DNA of 6,092 bases from Candidatus Delongbacteria bacterium. GTDB lineage: Bacteria > UBA4055. The stretch spans positions 1-6,092 of the forward strand of contig JAFGVM010000027.1 in the NCBI GenBank assembly GCA_016937995.1. The letters are read 5' to 3'. Made by a program: the position numbers and the translations under genes. The notes beneath the pieces are model-generated. The model was not told the origin of the DNA. It did no database searches and saw only the letters and a list, made by a program, of their open reading frames with translations. Below are positions 146 to 6,092 of this stretch, piece after piece (position 1 is the first letter of the stretch; each line of letters opens with the position of its first letter).

Positions 146-1687
146 GTGAAAAAGTGTTTTATTATTGTATTACTGATTGCACTTATTACGATCAATGCTG
201 AATATTTACCCGGTGATCATATCCCTGATATGCAGTTCACTGACACAAATATAGATTCTTCAGGCACTGTAATATACTCAGATCAAAGTACTAAGGACAT
301 AATATCTTCTGGAAAAATTGTTGTAATCAGCTTTTTCGGGGTCGGTTGAAGTACATGTCTTTCAGAGGGAGTGTCCCTAAAAAATATTCAGAATGATATA
401 GGAACCGACAGTGTCTATTTTATTGGAGCTACTCCGACTCAAGGATTTTCTGATAAAGACCTTAACGGAGATTTCTGGAGGAATATTTATAATGCAGGAT
501 TAAAATATCAAATATCAAATCATGATGAACTGGGAAAAGAGATGGTGATGTTCTCCACCACACAGTATACACCACAATTAGTTATTATCGGACAGGATTC
601 TAAATTGGTATTTTCTCATTTTGGTATGATTGATGAGGATAGTATAAGAGTAGAGATCAGAAAAGCACTTGATGGTTTTGGAAATTTACAACAGACTAGA
701 AAATTAGATAATATTTTTATTAATGGATCCAGATCTGTTATTGATCTCAATGCAAATTTTGCTACTGTGGATTTATCAAATATTGTTTATGAAATTTTAT
801 CTGTCACTGACAATACGATCATTGATGCAGACCTTATAGATTCGCAACTGATATTAAGCAGAGGCTCTAATACTGGAATGACCAATATAAAGATAAAAGC
901 TGCTAATATGTCAGAATCGGTAATAGATTCATTTGATGTAATGAGATATCCTGCGAATGCAAATATCCTGGACTTTGAATCGGGGAATTTATATGATCAT
1001 TGGTTCCATGAAGGTGACGCTGACTGGTATCTAGACTCTGATACTGTTTTTGAGGGTGAAGGGTGTGCCAGATCAGGTTATATTGATGCTCCAGGCGATG
1101 GAGAAGTGAATTATACTTTGTTAAAGACAACATTTGAATCAACACTTGATGATACTGTCAGTTTTGCTTATAAAATATCTTCTCAGTATGAAAGTGATGG
1201 ATTTGAAGTTCTCATAGACGGGATATGGGTGGATTTTCCTGACAGCAGATGGTCAGGTGAAGTGGACTGGTCTTTTGCGGAATATCCTGTTCCTGCAGGC
1301 AAGCATACTATTGAATGGGATTATTTTAAATGGGATTATAACTATTCAGGCAAAGATGCAGCCTGGATAGATATAATAAGGATCCCTGGAATAATTACAG
1401 GCATTGAGCATGTTGTTATACCAACAAAAACTCATTTGAACGGGAATTATCCAAATCCTTTCAACAATGAGACAGTTATTAAATATCAATTGAACAGTTC
1501 TAGCAAAGTTAAGCTGTTTGTTTTCAATATTAATGGGGAATTTGTTTCTGAATTGATCAATGAGAAACAAAACAGTGGACAGCATCAGGTGATTTTTAAT
1601 GCAGAAAATATTAACAGTGGTGTTTATTTCTATAGATTAGAAGCAGGAACTGAGGTCCAGACCGGGAAAATGATGTTTTTGAAATAG
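146..1687 (+). CDS. Secreted thioredoxin-like selenoprotein (UxxC) with Ig-like, MAM-like and sorting domains
   Basis: One reading frame of 513 residues plus TAG, read through TGA at 347-349 as selenocysteine 68. Residues 1-18 (MKKCFIIVLLIALITINA) form a signal peptide. Residues about 20-175 look like a redoxin/thioredoxin fold: strand IVVISFFGVG, then Sec68-Ser-Thr-Cys71, and a cis-proline loop YTPQLVIIG with Thr142-Pro143. Residues about 185-268 resemble an Ig/cadherin-like domain. Residues about 273-415 resemble a MAM/concanavalin-like sandwich (DFESG...W, AWIDIIRIPG). Residues about 430-513 are a type IX-style C-terminal sorting domain (NYPNPFNNETVIKYQL, SGVYFYRLEAG). The likely role is thiol-disulfide or peroxide chemistry outside the cytoplasm, possibly at the cell surface; the substrate is unknown. 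The start GTG 146 is chosen from the ribosome binding site; GTG 140 is the alternative. The gene stands alone, convergent with mtnA. A nonsense mutation or sequencing error is the alternative to Sec, but the position and hairpin make it less likely. Confidence 0.85.
347..349 (+). other. In-frame TGA read as selenocysteine (Sec68)
   Basis: The frame reads Val-Gly-TGA-Ser-Thr-Cys, so the TGA replaces the first, nucleophilic cysteine of a thioredoxin CxxC. The redoxin fold continues without break on both sides: the beta strand before it, and the helix and cis-Pro loop after it. UxxC motifs are an established class of bacterial thioredoxin-like selenoproteins. It is the only TGA inside any complete gene here, and no complete gene here ends in TGA. 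Confidence 0.85.
360..384 (+). promoter_or_regulatory. Bacterial SECIS-like hairpin downstream of the TGA
   Basis: AGGGA (366-370) pairs perfectly with TCCCT (374-378) around a three-base GTG loop (371-373). A short lower stem, TTT 360-362 with AAA 382-384, can form across an internal loop. Bacterial SECIS elements are known to lie inside the coding region just after UGA, with a small apical loop and a G in its first two positions. Here the loop G is the first base and 21 bases separate it from the TGA, inside the range known for such elements. The stem is short, so function depends on the cell's SelB. Confidence 0.7.
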
Positions 1688-1752: not shown

Positions 1753-2790
1753 TTATATTTTTTTTAATCCCTTAAGCTGTTCAGCAGTAAATATCCCTTT
1801 TTCAGTTATAAAACCGGTAATTAATCTTGCCGGAGTAATATCGAATCCATGATTAAGAGCAGGTGATGGTGTATGTGTAAGCGGTACACCTTTTTCAAAC
1901 TTGATCTCATCTTCGCTTCTTATTTCAATAGGTATCTCTTTACCAGATAAAATCCCGAAGTCAATAGTTGAGATGGGAGCAGCTATATAAAAAGGTATAT
2001 TGTTATCATAAGCTGCCAGGGCTTTCAGATACGTTCCTATCTTATTTGCAGTATCGCCGTTCAGAGCAATTCTGTCAGCTCCTGTTATAACAATATCAAC
2101 ATCACCGTTCTGCATAAGAAGTCCACCAGCATTATCAGTCACAACAATATGTGAAATTTTTTCATGATAGTATTCCCAGGCAGTGAGTTTGCCTCCCTGA
2201 TTTCTTGGTCTGGTCTCATCTACCCAGACATGAATGTCCATTCCTCTTGAAACTGCCTCAAAAACCGGTGCGGAAGCAGTTCCGTGATCAACAGTTGCCA
2301 GCCAGCCTGCATTACAATGCGTAAGTACATTCACTGATCCGTTATTATTCAATTCTCTGAGGATGGTATAGCCGTACTCTCCGATCCTTTTACAAGCTTT
2401 GATCTCGCTTTTATAAAGTTCATCAGCTTTGAATAAAGCATCTTCTGAAGGATCTTCTGTATTTGAATTCAATGCATGTTCATAAACCAGATCAACTGCA
2501 AACTGCAAATTAACAGCTGTTGGACGGGCATTCTTAAGTGCTGTGATCTTATTGTTCAATCTCTGGTGATCATCTCCCGATTCTTTAAAAGCGTAATATA
2601 CTCCATAAGCACCTGCAACTCCGATCAACGGTGCTCCACGAACTTTCATGCTCTTAATTGCATCAATGATATCATCGCTGGATCTCAGGTCAATTATCTT
2701 GAATTCTTCTGGTAGCAGTGTTTGATCTATTATTTTAGCGATCCCATTTTCGAACCACAGAGAAGTATATTTCTTACCGTTGTATTTCAT
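1753..2790 (-). CDS. mtnA: S-methyl-5-thioribose-1-phosphate isomerase
   Basis: A full-length 345-residue member of the MtnA/eIF2B-alpha family. The enzyme converts the aldose 5-methylthioribose-1-phosphate to 5-methylthioribulose-1-phosphate in the cytoplasmic methionine salvage pathway. Related enzymes act on 5-deoxyribose-1-phosphate. Diagnostic blocks are VRGAPLIGVAGAYG (50-63), THCNAGW with catalytic Cys159 (157-163), DETRPRNQG (191-199), ITGADRIALNGDTANKIGTY with catalytic Asp239 (235-254), and FDITPARLITGFITEKGI (316-333). The DNAGGLLM and SPALNHGFDITPARL variants resemble the subgroup I associate with alphaproteobacterial MtnA. The N-terminus (LWFENGIAKIIDQTLLP) aligns with the family, supporting this ATG, although the Shine-Dalgarno is weak (GAGA about 11 bases upstream). 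No other salvage gene is in the window. It lies downstream of the channel gene but beyond that gene's terminator, so it is probably transcribed separately. The 65 bases between its stop and the selenoprotein stop hold no convincing terminator. Confidence 0.93.
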   Translation of the reverse strand: MKYNGKKYTSLWFENGIAKIIDQTLLPEEFKIIDLRSSDDIIDAIKSMKVRGAPLIGVAGAYGVYYAFKESGDDHQRLNNKITALKNARPTAVNLQFAVDLVYEHALNSNTEDPSEDALFKADELYKSEIKACKRIGEYGYTILRELNNNGSVNVLTHCNAGWLATVDHGTASAPVFEAVSRGMDIHVWVDETRPRNQGGKLTAWEYYHEKISHIVVTDNAGGLLMQNGDVDIVITGADRIALNGDTANKIGTYLKALAAYDNNIPFYIAAPISTIDFGILSGKEIPIEIRSEDEIKFEKGVPLTHTPSPALNHGFDITPARLITGFITEKGIFTAEQLKGLKKI

Positions 2791-2815
2791 TTACCGGATT
2801 CTCAATTATTTGTTT

Positions 2816-2846
2816 GAAAGATAGAATTTAATATAGATTGGTGCAA
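2816..2846 (-). promoter_or_regulatory. Candidate promoter for mtnA
   Basis: Read on the minus strand, TTGCAC (2841-2846) is followed by TATCTTTC (2816-2823), 17 bases from hexamer to hexamer. This is a weak sigma-70 match. It is also one mismatch from the Bacteroidota-type TTG / TAnnTTTG arrangement. A promoter is expected here because the terminator at 2863-2889 isolates mtnA from the gene upstream of it. Confidence 0.35.
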
Positions 2847-2862
2847 TCGTAAAAAAATATTA

Positions 2863-2889
2863 AAAAAGCCGTGAAATTCACGGCTTTTT
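2863..2889 (-). terminator. Rho-independent terminator after the MscS-family gene
   Basis: A perfect 12-base-pair stem (2863-2874 with 2878-2889, core GCCGTGA/TCACGGC) closes a three-base loop. A and T runs flank it on both sides, so in principle it works in either direction. It begins six bases beyond the channel gene's stop codon, and no plus-strand gene needs it. Confidence 0.93.
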
Positions 2890-2894
2890 AGTAT

Positions 2895-3956
2895 CTAAAC
2901 TAATTCTTTCTTATATATAGTCTGAGTCGGATAAGCAAATTCCAATCCGTTTTCATTGAACTGTCTAAGGACCTGCAGATTCACCTTAGATTGTGTAGCC
3001 AGAATATCAGCTTCTTTTCTAATGTAATATATAAACAATATCCCCAGATTGAAATCACCCCAGTTATTGAAAGAAATTATTCTGTCTAGAGTCAAGCAAT
3101 CCTGATTAGCATTTACAATATCATCAAGTATCTTCATTGCCAGTTCCATTTTGTCGGGAGTGGTATCGTAGGTCAATCCTAAACTTACAGATACCTTTCT
3201 GGAAGGTTCAATAGAGATGTTTTCAATACTTGATTCAGAAAAATTAGCGTTTGGAACAGTTATGATCCTTCCCATCAGAGTTTTTATTCTTGTACTTCTT
3301 ATACCTACTTCAGTAACAAAACCATCCTGACCGCTGATGATTATCCTGTCACCGAGCTTAAAAGGTTTATCAAGGAAGATCATTATCCCACCGAAGATAT
3401 TTTTTACAGTGTCCTGAGCTGCTAATGCTAAAGCCAGTCCACCTATTCCAAGACCAGCTATTAAAGCCATGATGTCAAATCCTGCATTATCAAGACCTAT
3501 TATAATACCCATAGACCAGAGAAGTGCTTTCATCCCTTTGCGTATAATAGGTACTATCTGATCATCAAAAGTATTTTCAGACTTTACAGTATATGGTATG
3601 ACAAGTTCTGTAAAAACAGCATCTATTGCTCTTACAAGCAACCATGTAATATTAAATATCAGGATGAATGTAAAAGCATGAGCTATAATAGTATGAGTTT
3701 TTGGGGAAAAAGTAAGTCTGTCAAGCCCCAACCATGCACCACCAATGATGAAGGCATATATTATCGGTTTTTCAAGTACTTGTATCAGTACATCATCCAG
3801 TCTGGTTTTAGTTTTGGATATAAGTTTTTTTATGACCGCACTAAATATCCAATATATTATTTTTGATACTATAATACCTCCGATAATGAAAAGCAGAGAT
3901 ATGAACCAGTCTTCAGCTGTGTTGTTGTAATATGTCTTAGCTAAAAATTCTTTCAT
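2895..3956 (-). CDS. MscS-family mechanosensitive ion channel
   Basis: A 353-residue inner-membrane protein of the small-conductance mechanosensitive channel family, which opens under membrane tension and releases solutes during osmotic downshock. Hydrophobic segments lie at about 17-40, 64-80, 93-115, 143-158 and 161-192. The last is the glycine- and alanine-rich pore helix (ALIAGLGIGGLALALAAQD, 164-182) followed by the hallmark NIFGGIMIFLDKPFKLGDRI (186-205). The cytoplasmic beta domain follows (VTEVGIRSTRIKTLMGR, 214-230, then VPNANFS), then the alpha/beta vestibule, ending in NENGLEFAYPTQTIY. It has about five predicted membrane segments, two more than E. coli MscS, which is common in the family. 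The start is supported by a strong ribosome binding site. It has its own promoter and terminator, so it is probably monocistronic. The closest named subfamily cannot be fixed from sequence alone. Confidence 0.93.
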   Translation of the reverse strand: MKEFLAKTYYNNTAEDWFISLLFIIGGIIVSKIIYWIFSAVIKKLISKTKTRLDDVLIQVLEKPIIYAFIIGGAWLGLDRLTFSPKTHTIIAHAFTFILIFNITWLLVRAIDAVFTELVIPYTVKSENTFDDQIVPIIRKGMKALLWSMGIIIGLDNAGFDIMALIAGLGIGGLALALAAQDTVKNIFGGIMIFLDKPFKLGDRIIISGQDGFVTEVGIRSTRIKTLMGRIITVPNANFSESSIENISIEPSRKVSVSLGLTYDTTPDKMELAMKILDDIVNANQDCLTLDRIISFNNWGDFNLGILFIYYIRKEADILATQSKVNLQVLRQFNENGLEFAYPTQTIYKKELV

Positions 3957-3963
3957 GAATATT

Positions 3964-3968
3964 TCCTC
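3964..3968 (-). promoter_or_regulatory. Ribosome binding site of the MscS-family gene
   Basis: On the minus strand GAGGA lies seven bases before the ATG at 3954-3956. This is the clearest Shine-Dalgarno in the window and fixes that start. Confidence 0.85.
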
Positions 3969-3982
3969 TTTATTTTTTTGAG

Positions 3983-4012
3983 AATATAATAAATTTTAAA
4001 GCTAAATGTCAA
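3983..4012 (-). promoter_or_regulatory. Sigma-70-like promoter of the MscS-family gene
   Basis: On the minus strand a perfect TTGACA (4007-4012) is followed after 18 bases by TATATT (3983-3988, 5 of 6 to TATAAT). Transcription would begin near 3975, leaving a leader of about 20 bases that contains the ribosome binding site at 3964-3968. The agreement of promoter, leader, ribosome binding site and start codon makes this the best-supported promoter here. Confidence 0.75.
3985..3990 (+). promoter_or_regulatory. Possible -10 box for the methyltransferase gene
   Basis: A perfect TATAAT on the plus strand, 73 bases before the annotated ATG, overlaps the -10 of the divergent channel promoter. No good -35 lies 16-18 bases upstream (TTTCCT at 3962-3967). 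TATGAT at 4017-4022 is an equally weak alternative. Chance is likely in such AT-rich sequence. Confidence 0.25.
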
Positions 4013-4063
4013 GGTGTATGATGCTTTCTATTTTAGAAGAATTCTTGCTTATTTATTGATAAA

Positions 4064-5272
4064 ATGATAAATTCATTAATTAAAACAAGGCAAAAAGTTA
4101 TGTTAGATGAATTACAAAATTTCATAAATGATTTTAAAGAATCTCTTGAAGGTCATACTTTTGTTAAGATGATCCTCAGCAAACCCTATGAAAAGAGTTA
4201 TGATATAAAAAAGATCACAGTTAATATGGTTGAGATCAGATCTTCAAGGATGCTCTCGTTTCTTTTTACCTACAAAACAAAAGATGTAACAAAGAATTAT
4301 ACATTTGATGATGGTTTAGTCGAAGTTGAAAAACTTCTCAATGAAAGTATGAAAAATTGCGCTCTTTTCACTACAGAGAGCACAATTGATCTAAATATTT
4401 CTAAAAAGAAAAAAGTTCTCATCAGCAGATCAAAGCCAATATATAAATCCTTGATCGAGCCTGAGATCAACAGGATGAAGAAGAGGAATATTACTATTGA
4501 AAATAATGTATATCTACACAAGTTAGGTGTTGCAACTTCGAAGAATATATTAATTAAGAATATGCAGGGCAAGTTCAAGCAGATCAACAGGTTCGTTGAG
4601 ACTATAGATGGTCTTATAAAGTCTTCAGTTTTGAAAGATACCCGAAATATCACTGTAGCTGATATGGGATCGGGGAAGGGGTATCTTACTTTTGCAGTTT
4701 ATGATCATTTAGTAAATAACTTGAAGATCACTGCAGAAGTCACTGGAGTGGAGCTGAGACAGGGGTTGATCGATACTTGTAATGTTATTGCAAACGAATG
4801 TGGATTTGCCGGCCTTAAATTTGTACAAGGGACAATAAATGACTATACAGGACAGGCTTCTCAAATGCTTATAGCGCTCCATGCCTGTGATACTGCTACT
4901 GATGATGCAATTTTCAAAGGAATTACTACGGGTTCTGAGATAATCGTTGTTTCACCTTGCTGTCATAAACAGGTTAGAAAAGAATTGAATATTACTAACG
5001 AATTGAAAGAGATCACTCAGCATGGGATTTTGGAAGAACGTATGGCTGAAATGGTAACTGATACAATGAGAGGATTGATGCTGGAAGCTTACGGTTACAA
5101 GACGAAAATATTCGAATATATCTCTGATGAACATACTCATAAAAACTTAATGATATCTGCTGTTAAAACTTCTAATAAAATAGACAAAGATGGAATTCTA
5201 AATAGATTGATTGCATTAAAAAAGACTTTCGGGATAGAGAAATTCTATCTTGAAGAGCTGATGAAAAATTAA
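4064..5272 (+). CDS. Class I SAM-dependent methyltransferase, Methyltransf_32-like
   Basis: A 402-residue cytoplasmic protein. Residues about 1-170 form a charged, lysine-rich region that I do not recognise and that may bind the substrate. The Rossmann methyltransferase domain begins near 195: motif I VADMGSGKGYL (198-208, SAM binding), acidic end of strand 2 at VTGVELR (Glu230), then ALHACDTATDDAI (271-283) and VVSPCCHKQVR (295-305). The paired LHACDTATD and PCC motifs mark the family related to eukaryotic GSTCD- and TRM13-like methyltransferases. Its bacterial members are mostly uncharacterised; an RNA substrate is a plausible inference only. No Shine-Dalgarno precedes the ATG at 4064. An internal ATG at 4100 (Met13) has AAGG nine bases upstream and may be the true start, giving 390 residues. 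The gene is divergent from the channel gene and ends one base before the convergent FGE-like gene. Confidence 0.85.
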   Translation: MINSLIKTRQKVMLDELQNFINDFKESLEGHTFVKMILSKPYEKSYDIKKITVNMVEIRSSRMLSFLFTYKTKDVTKNYTFDDGLVEVEKLLNESMKNCALFTTESTIDLNISKKKKVLISRSKPIYKSLIEPEINRMKKRNITIENNVYLHKLGVATSKNILIKNMQGKFKQINRFVETIDGLIKSSVLKDTRNITVADMGSGKGYLTFAVYDHLVNNLKITAEVTGVELRQGLIDTCNVIANECGFAGLKFVQGTINDYTGQASQMLIALHACDTATDDAIFKGITTGSEIIVVSPCCHKQVRKELNITNELKEITQHGILEERMAEMVTDTMRGLMLEAYGYKTKIFEYISDEHTHKNLMISAVKTSNKIDKDGILNRLIALKKTFGIEKFYLEELMKN

Positions 5273-5273
5273 T

Positions 5274-6092
5274 TTATTTGTTTCTGACGAGCCTGATACC
5301 AATAGACCCTGAAGATATCTCAGCATTTCTCCTGGTAACTCTCATCCAGTCTTTACCATCATGGAAGTAACCGCCTCTATAGACATGACCTTTCGAACCT
5401 GTTTTGGGTCCTTTTGGATTATCTTCTGGGCTTTCTCTGTAATAATTTTCATCATACCAGTCCCAACACCATTCATTGGTATTCCCGCTCATATCAAAAA
5501 TTCCCAGCTCGTTCGGTTTTAGTTTTCCAGGGGGGTTCATACGATTATTACTGTCAGGATAATAATAATTCCCCCATGCCACTTCTTTTTCATCATTACT
5601 ACCACTGTAGATAAACCCTTTACTTTTATTTCCGCCTCTTGCAGCATACTCCCATTCAGCTTCTGTGGGCATCCTGTATCCGTTATTATTCCATTTACAT
5701 CTCACGATGTAATTGTTTAAAGTAGATTTGTTAAAAGGATCCTTTCTATCCTTCACAATTAAATAGCACGAATCAAGTCCTTCTCTGTTGCTGATCAAAT
5801 TACAGAATTCAGCTACCTCAAGAAATGATACATAGCAGACAGGTAACTCGGGATCGCATTCTTCATCATAAGCTAACCAATGTTTACCAAAATGTTCTTT
5901 TACGGGTTCATATCCCATAAATTCAGTCCATTTTCTCTGGGTCACTTCGTATTTTGCAATATAAAAACTATCTATCTTTACAGTATGCACAGGTTTCTGA
6001 TTTTCCAGATCATCCTGTGATCCCATCTTAAAAGACCCTCCTTCCACAGCGACCATTTGAAATCCTGATGATGAAGTAAAATCTTTAAATTC
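5274..6092 (-). CDS. FGE-sulfatase (SUMF1-fold) domain protein, N-terminus beyond the window
   Basis: The visible 272 codons contain an almost complete formylglycine-generating-enzyme-like domain. Numbering from the ATG at 6056, its blocks are MVAVEGGSFKMGS (1-13), FYIAKYEVTQRKW (31-43), LPVCYVSFLEVAEFCNLIS (71-89), YRMPTEAEWEYAARGG (127-142), NELGIFDMSGNTNEWCWDWY (182-201) and VYRGGYF...RVTRRNAE...GIRLV (225-257). The frame stays open from that ATG to the window edge (EFKDFTSSSGFQ). Family members often have a signal peptide or another domain before this point, so I annotate it as partial. AGGA six bases before the ATG at 6056 makes that a possible start. The two C-terminal active-site cysteines of true FGE are absent: no Cys follows Cys197. 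It is therefore probably not a sulfatase activator but one of the many FGE-fold proteins with binding or unknown roles. Confidence 0.87.
   Translation of the reverse strand, partial: EFKDFTSSSGFQMVAVEGGSFKMGSQDDLENQKPVHTVKIDSFYIAKYEVTQRKWTEFMGYEPVKEHFGKHWLAYDEECDPELPVCYVSFLEVAEFCNLISNREGLDSCYLIVKDRKDPFNKSTLNNYIVRCKWNNNGYRMPTEAEWEYAARGGNKSKGFIYSGSNDEKEVAWGNYYYPDSNNRMNPPGKLKPNELGIFDMSGNTNEWCWDWYDENYYRESPEDNPKGPKTGSKGHVYRGGYFHDGKDWMRVTRRNAEISSGSIGIRLVRNK

Follow-up and report, generated by a model that had tools for sequence, protein, structure and literature searches.

Prokaryotic selenoproteins have mostly been described as cytoplasmic or periplasmic enzymes. That UxxC redox selenoproteins are established, as the original prediction for the locus described here took for granted, is borne out by a 2026 catalogue of prokaryotic selenoproteins; in its excerpted part, it includes a UxxC redoxin (PF08534), a thiol-disulfide isomerase-like/TlpA-like (cd02966), and a Prx-like family, so that a protein of this kind is already known (PMC13188914). 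The same excerpts give the rules for the bacterial SECIS (bSECIS) hairpin: a loop of 3–9 nt with G in the first two positions, a stem of 4–16 bp, and a distance of 16–37 nt from the UGA (PMC13188914).

Here, we report a gene from Candidatus Delongbacteria, located in a 6,092-nucleotide stretch of DNA (the window), in which an apparent stop codon almost certainly encodes selenocysteine (Sec) as an active-site residue of an exported redox protein. Like the Redoxin (PF08534) and cd02966 selenoproteins in the catalogue excerpts, the window protein combines a putatively bSECIS-directed Sec in a UxxC motif with a redoxin/TlpA-type thioredoxin fold; compared with these entries, for which the excerpts name no T9SS tail (type IX secretion system sorting tail), the window family carries a type IX secretion system (T9SS) tail in nearly all complete members, measures about 250–600 residues, and reaches up to seven copies per genome. 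The ResA/TlpA/DsbE oxidoreductases have the same fold (ResA, Z 17.1) and the redox motif in the same place, whereas the window protein would have Sec for the first Cys, possesses C-terminal beta-rich domains and a T9SS tail, and is only about 15–20% identical to them. The Prx-like thiol:disulfide oxidoreductase selenoproteins (PF00578) carry UxxC on an AhpC/TSA-like fold, as here; however, the excerpted catalogue gives no export by a T9SS-type tail for them, and the profile matches of the window family are weak. T9SS type A cargo (TIGR04183/PF18962) shares with the window protein a (here putative) signal peptide and a sorting domain over both curated cut-offs. The gene comprises the following features, given with the evidence for each:

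140–1687, + strand: single Sec-redoxin gene with a T9SS-type sorting tail (translation with TGA as U, full-length homologues, purifying selection)
146–199, + strand: signal-peptide-like N-terminal segment, MKKCFIIVLLIALITINA (sequence; similar hydrophobic N-termini in homologues)
200–682, + strand: ResA/TlpA-like redoxin domain (sub-threshold PF08534, joined ORF only; AlphaFold2 model; ResA match)
347–349, + strand: UGA predicted to be decoded as selenocysteine, first position of the UxxC motif, U70-S-T-C73 (TGA invariant in orthologues; Cys in its place in L066 and in the TlpA paralogues; genome with Sec machinery)
356–358, + strand: predicted resolving cysteine of UxxC, TGT (invariant in alignments A2 and A4)
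366–378, + strand: bSECIS-type hairpin AGGGA-GUG-UCCCU, loop 21 nt past the UGA (position kept in L047 and L048; family covariation)
572–574, + strand: putative cis-Pro codon, P145 in ...YTPQLVIIG (invariant in A2, A4, and the Cys homologues)
1448–1684, + strand: T9SS type A sorting domain (Por_Secre_tail), residues 437–515 (PF18962, TIGR04183)

Standard gene calling yields exactly the two same-frame ORFs that had been predicted to result from it, 140–349 (69 aa) and 371–1687 (438 aa), parted by the TGA at 347–349 and the six codons for S-T-C-L-S-E. If the TGA is read as Sec, a single ORF of 515 residues is obtained (...VVISFFGVG-U-STC-LSEG..., with G-U-S-T-C as the motif), which ends at the TAG at 1685–1687. 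The start at GTG140 given in the original prediction is possible, but on the basis of the sequence GTG146 is more likely: GAGG at 137–140 stands six bases 5' of it, and the resulting M-K-K-C-F terminus (MKKCFIIVLL...) agrees better with the way in which the homologues begin. Beyond what had been predicted, the protein has a putative signal peptide and a C-terminal sorting domain and belongs to a larger gene family. The neighboring genes in the window are an IF-2B/MtnA-like gene (1753–2790, − strand), an MscS-type channel (2895–3956, − strand), a Methyltransf_32 protein (4064–5272, + strand), and an SUMF1/FGE-sulfatase-like gene truncated by the contig end (5274–6092, − strand); no selenium connection was evident for any of the four (window 1753–6092).

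Thirteen genomes of the phylum, all belonging to one family, were searched with a domain profile; relatives were found when the contigs were queried with an alignment, and a single-sequence query gave none. Homologues with one in-frame TGA each numbered 48 and occurred in 11 of the 13 genomes, with one to seven copies per carrying genome: six in the source genome (G000), seven each in G001 and G004, six each in G007 and G010, five in G002, four in G012, three in G005, two in G011, and one each in G003 and G009. In every one of the 48 copies, the in-domain TGA falls at the redox motif, as UxxC in 38, CxxU in eight (for example, ACYSUSG and ACFSUTG), and UxxxC in two (SUGSMC). Full-length homologues are 29–69% identical to the window protein and have one TGA each. 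Six close orthologues (L084–L089, 43–69% identical) keep the TGA in the same alignment column with largely saturated synonymous sites, and this, together with the 48 out of 48 TGAs at the motif, excludes chance. TGC or TGT in close relatives had been named as evidence against Sec; these relatives retain TGA instead, and the hairpin of the family covaries. Cys takes the place of the TGA in one member (L066, G007:C184, with CVPC), as it does in the ordinary TlpA paralogues. Three members (L073 in G007:C94, L072 in G004:C91, and L083 in G007:C219) have neither Sec nor Cys at the motif and are possibly non-catalytic. As a side observation, three family Sec redoxin genes stand in tandem in the source genome (L076, G000:C50:57643-62315), 3' of a triosephosphate-isomerase-like ORF, and the same arrangement with four copies is present in G010:C74. 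A CxxU-type member (L081) adjoins selA on the small contig G000:C3, which also bears thioredoxin-reductase-like and rubrerythrin/ferritin-like genes.

The original prediction placed the TGA at the first Cys of a CxxC in a redoxin fold, and both the alignment and the structural model agree with this: the CVPC of L066 and the CxxC of TlpA match the U70 column, and the AlphaFold2 model of the redoxin domain (built from eight natural sequences; pLDDT 78) is thioredoxin-like. In this model, residue 51 (U70) sits between strand 41–46 and helix 52–68, i.e., immediately N-terminal to the helix after the central strand, the position of the first CxxC Cys in thioredoxins. Structural comparison of the domain model with VIA-align gave ResA 2h1b as the best match (Z 17.1, 136 residues aligned, rmsd 2.1). 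Please note that the full-length AlphaFold model (pLDDT 66, pTM 0.51) is poor, with low confidence over the redoxin part, and supports no reading further than that the middle and C-terminal regions are beta-rich. As for the claim that joining the two ORFs restores a redoxin, Pfam Redoxin (PF08534) matches only the joined protein (18.5 bits over residues 25–160; 21 bits for the domain alone), with no match in either half separately; the score, however, stays under the gathering value of 26.6. The cis-Pro loop anticipated downstream is present, P145 being invariant in A2, A4, and the Cys homologues; its cis geometry would follow by analogy with the thioredoxin fold.

The Sec reading also depends on selA, selB, selC, and selD in the same genome, as the original prediction had pointed out, and SelA (549 bits), SelB (334 bits), and SelD (354 bits) are indeed encoded there together with a tRNA-Sec (58 bits; called by ARAGORN as tRNA-SeC with anticodon TCA). 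The SelD of the source genome (L015, G000:C37:2048-2968) itself has one in-frame TGA, like known Sec-containing SelD. Across the phylum, SelB is above the cut-off in 11 of the 13 genomes and below it in G009 and G010, which are fragmented assemblies yet have TGA copies. In G006 and G008, SelB exceeds the cut-off, but no TGA copy of the family is present.

The hairpin of the window conforms in its geometry to the bSECIS rules as excerpted (loop GUG, 5 bp, 21 nt), and its A-GUG-U agrees with the N1-G-U-N-N2 loop pattern, likewise as far as the source excerpts give it. Its energy is −5.8 kcal/mol locally, a value matched by 9% of control TGAs, and −7.5 to −8.1 kcal/mol in longer stretches, in which additional bases take part in the fold. 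Folded singly, the window segment gave a shuffle p of about 0.05 with a z that was not significant, and an Rfam scan of window 300–500 returned no match; to our knowledge, Rfam has no bacterial SECIS model. Since the window hairpin is not significant alone, it is the family that carries the SECIS claim. The bSECIS rules plus an energy threshold of MFE ≤ −7.5 kcal/mol are satisfied by 37 of the 48 TGA copies, 38 of 800 control TGAs, and none of the 16 Cys paralogues, and the best-hairpin score is also different in Sec and Cys copies. The covarying hairpin of the relatives lies 17–21 nt 3' of the UGA. In the subfamilies with loops at 17 and 20 nt, the stem pairing holds in 83/96 and 60/60 cells, respectively, with several pair types; when the partners were slid, the pairing fell to 23–49 and 17–38, and the observed value was reached by 0/2000 shuffles, with the reservation that the stem positions were picked after the hairpins had been seen, which somewhat favors them, and that the slid control keeps the relatedness but not that choice. 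No Watson-Crick covariation is visible in the window's own subfamily, which has only three sequences. The rare codons GCG, CCG, ACG, and GAG are favored at U+5 to U+8 and nowhere else nearby, showing that the RNA is under selection.

Could the TGA be a real stop, whether of a pseudogene, by a sequencing error, or between two genes, with the downstream ORF read from GTG371? Gene calling does give two ORFs, and the hairpin of the window, taken by itself, is weak. Yet the TGA column is common to the close orthologues, the codon recurs at the motif in 48 copies from 11 genomes and is therefore not the sequencing error against which the original prediction had asked to be checked, both of its flanks are under purifying selection (pN/pS 0.12–0.33 or dN/dS 0.08–0.15, dS being saturated in most pairs), the STCLSE codons between the TGA and GTG371 are conserved, and truncation at this point loses the active site and the preceding strand. 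We consider a real stop very improbable; in particular, a pseudogene or a sequencing error is ruled out by the recurrence of the TGA and the selection on both flanks. A genome-wide reassignment of UGA (e.g., to Trp or Gly), with a residue other than selenocysteine, would look identical where an in-frame TGA is translated as sense. The source genome, however, has RF2 (prfB, 472 bits), indicating that UGA is also an ordinary stop, and UGA terminates two members of the family elsewhere in the phylum (G003:C42 and G010:C74), the homologues there ending in ...LLVK or ...MLK. Moreover, the TGA occurs once per family domain and invariably at the place of a Cys in the homologues, and SelB and tRNA-Sec are present. 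With RF2 and the UGA stops, reassignment is ruled out, and we give it practically no weight.

The sorting domain of the window protein scores 41.3 bits with PF18962 (cut-off 27) and 42.4 bits with TIGR04183 (cut-off 23), and a P-N-P-F-N type sorting tail is found on nearly all family copies whose C-terminus is present. The source genome encodes the translocon protein SprA, the T9SS component that was searched (649.9 bits with its neighbours in frame, cut-off 200). Judging from the tail, the protein would be exported. The best explanation overall, in which we have very high confidence, is one exported selenoprotein with SECIS-directed Sec at UGA 347–349 and a redox role of the ResA/TlpA kind. 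Briefly, SelB with Sec-tRNA(Sec) would bind the hairpin at 366–378, and the ribosome would insert selenocysteine at the UGA; the signal peptide would take the full protein into the periplasm, from which the T9SS, guided by the C-terminal tail, probably carries it across the outer membrane to the cell surface or the outside. There, U70 would serve as the attacking selenol and C73 as the resolving thiol, the redoxin domain being most likely a thiol/selenol-disulfide oxidoreductase.

Two variants keep Sec in the protein and change its role or its place. The protein may be mainly a peroxidase, peroxiredoxin-like, rather than a disulfide oxidoreductase: AhpC/TSA and Redoxin profiles match members of the family, peroxiredoxins reach a Z of about 15 in the fold comparison, and Sec increases peroxidase activity in known enzymes. 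We regard this as unlikely, as ResA structures are the top fold matches (Z 16–17), the UxxC lies at the thioredoxin CxxC site in alignment with the CxxC of TlpA, and the peroxiredoxin TxxC/U motif is lacking. Retention in the periplasm or the outer membrane, with the tail as an anchor and the maintenance of c-type cytochromes or other secreted proteins as the task, is a tentative but quite conceivable possibility: ResA and TlpA act as thiol reductases at the surface or facing the periplasm, and surface attachment is a frequent fate of proteins with T9SS tails. An exported oxidoreductase of the ResA/TlpA kind is the reading that we prefer.

A sample of 386 genomes contained further UxxC redoxins outside the phylum, with strong hairpins 3' of the TGA (L156, L157, L158, L161, L163, and L173), so the UxxC redoxin is not restricted to Delongbacteria. 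These come from other phyla or families, and three are long multidomain proteins of the exported type: L158 (G013) has a T9SS-like tail, and L156 and L157 (G231 and G089) have other long extracytoplasmic parts; L161, L163, and L173 are shorter and TlpA-like. As to what has been described, no selenoprotein was found among T9SS cargo in the literature searched, where a search for selenoproteins with Delongbacteria/Cloacimonetes, type IX secretion, or sorting domain returned nothing relevant either. No report of a T9SS-tailed selenoprotein family was found in the open-access literature, an absence that is no proof of novelty. The catalogue table as excerpted names no such multigene family (PMC13188914), Pfam has no family corresponding to T9SS-tailed Sec redoxins, and in NCBIfam no family is over the cut-off except the sorting tail and generic domains. 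We rate the T9SS-tailed multigene family as the novelty here, the UxxC redoxin selenoprotein itself being known from the catalogue excerpts.

Standard annotation would split every gene of this type and lose the active site; mis-annotation is therefore probable for about 48 genes in the 11 genomes. For the evolution of the bSECIS element, the family offers a natural series with many paralogues that differ in their stems, loops at two or three positions, and a Cys comparison within the genome. Here, an entire gene family combines Sec with T9SS sorting tails, and the literature searched reports no selenoproteins from this phylum. It is an evenly balanced proposition, in our view, that this phylum-wide, expanded set of T9SS-exported selenoproteins (UxxC, CxxU, and UxxxC; one to seven copies) constitutes a surface redox system of Delongbacteria, with similar multidomain exported UxxC redoxins in other phyla (L156–L158). 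If this is true, Delongbacteria would make extensive extracellular use of selenocysteine.
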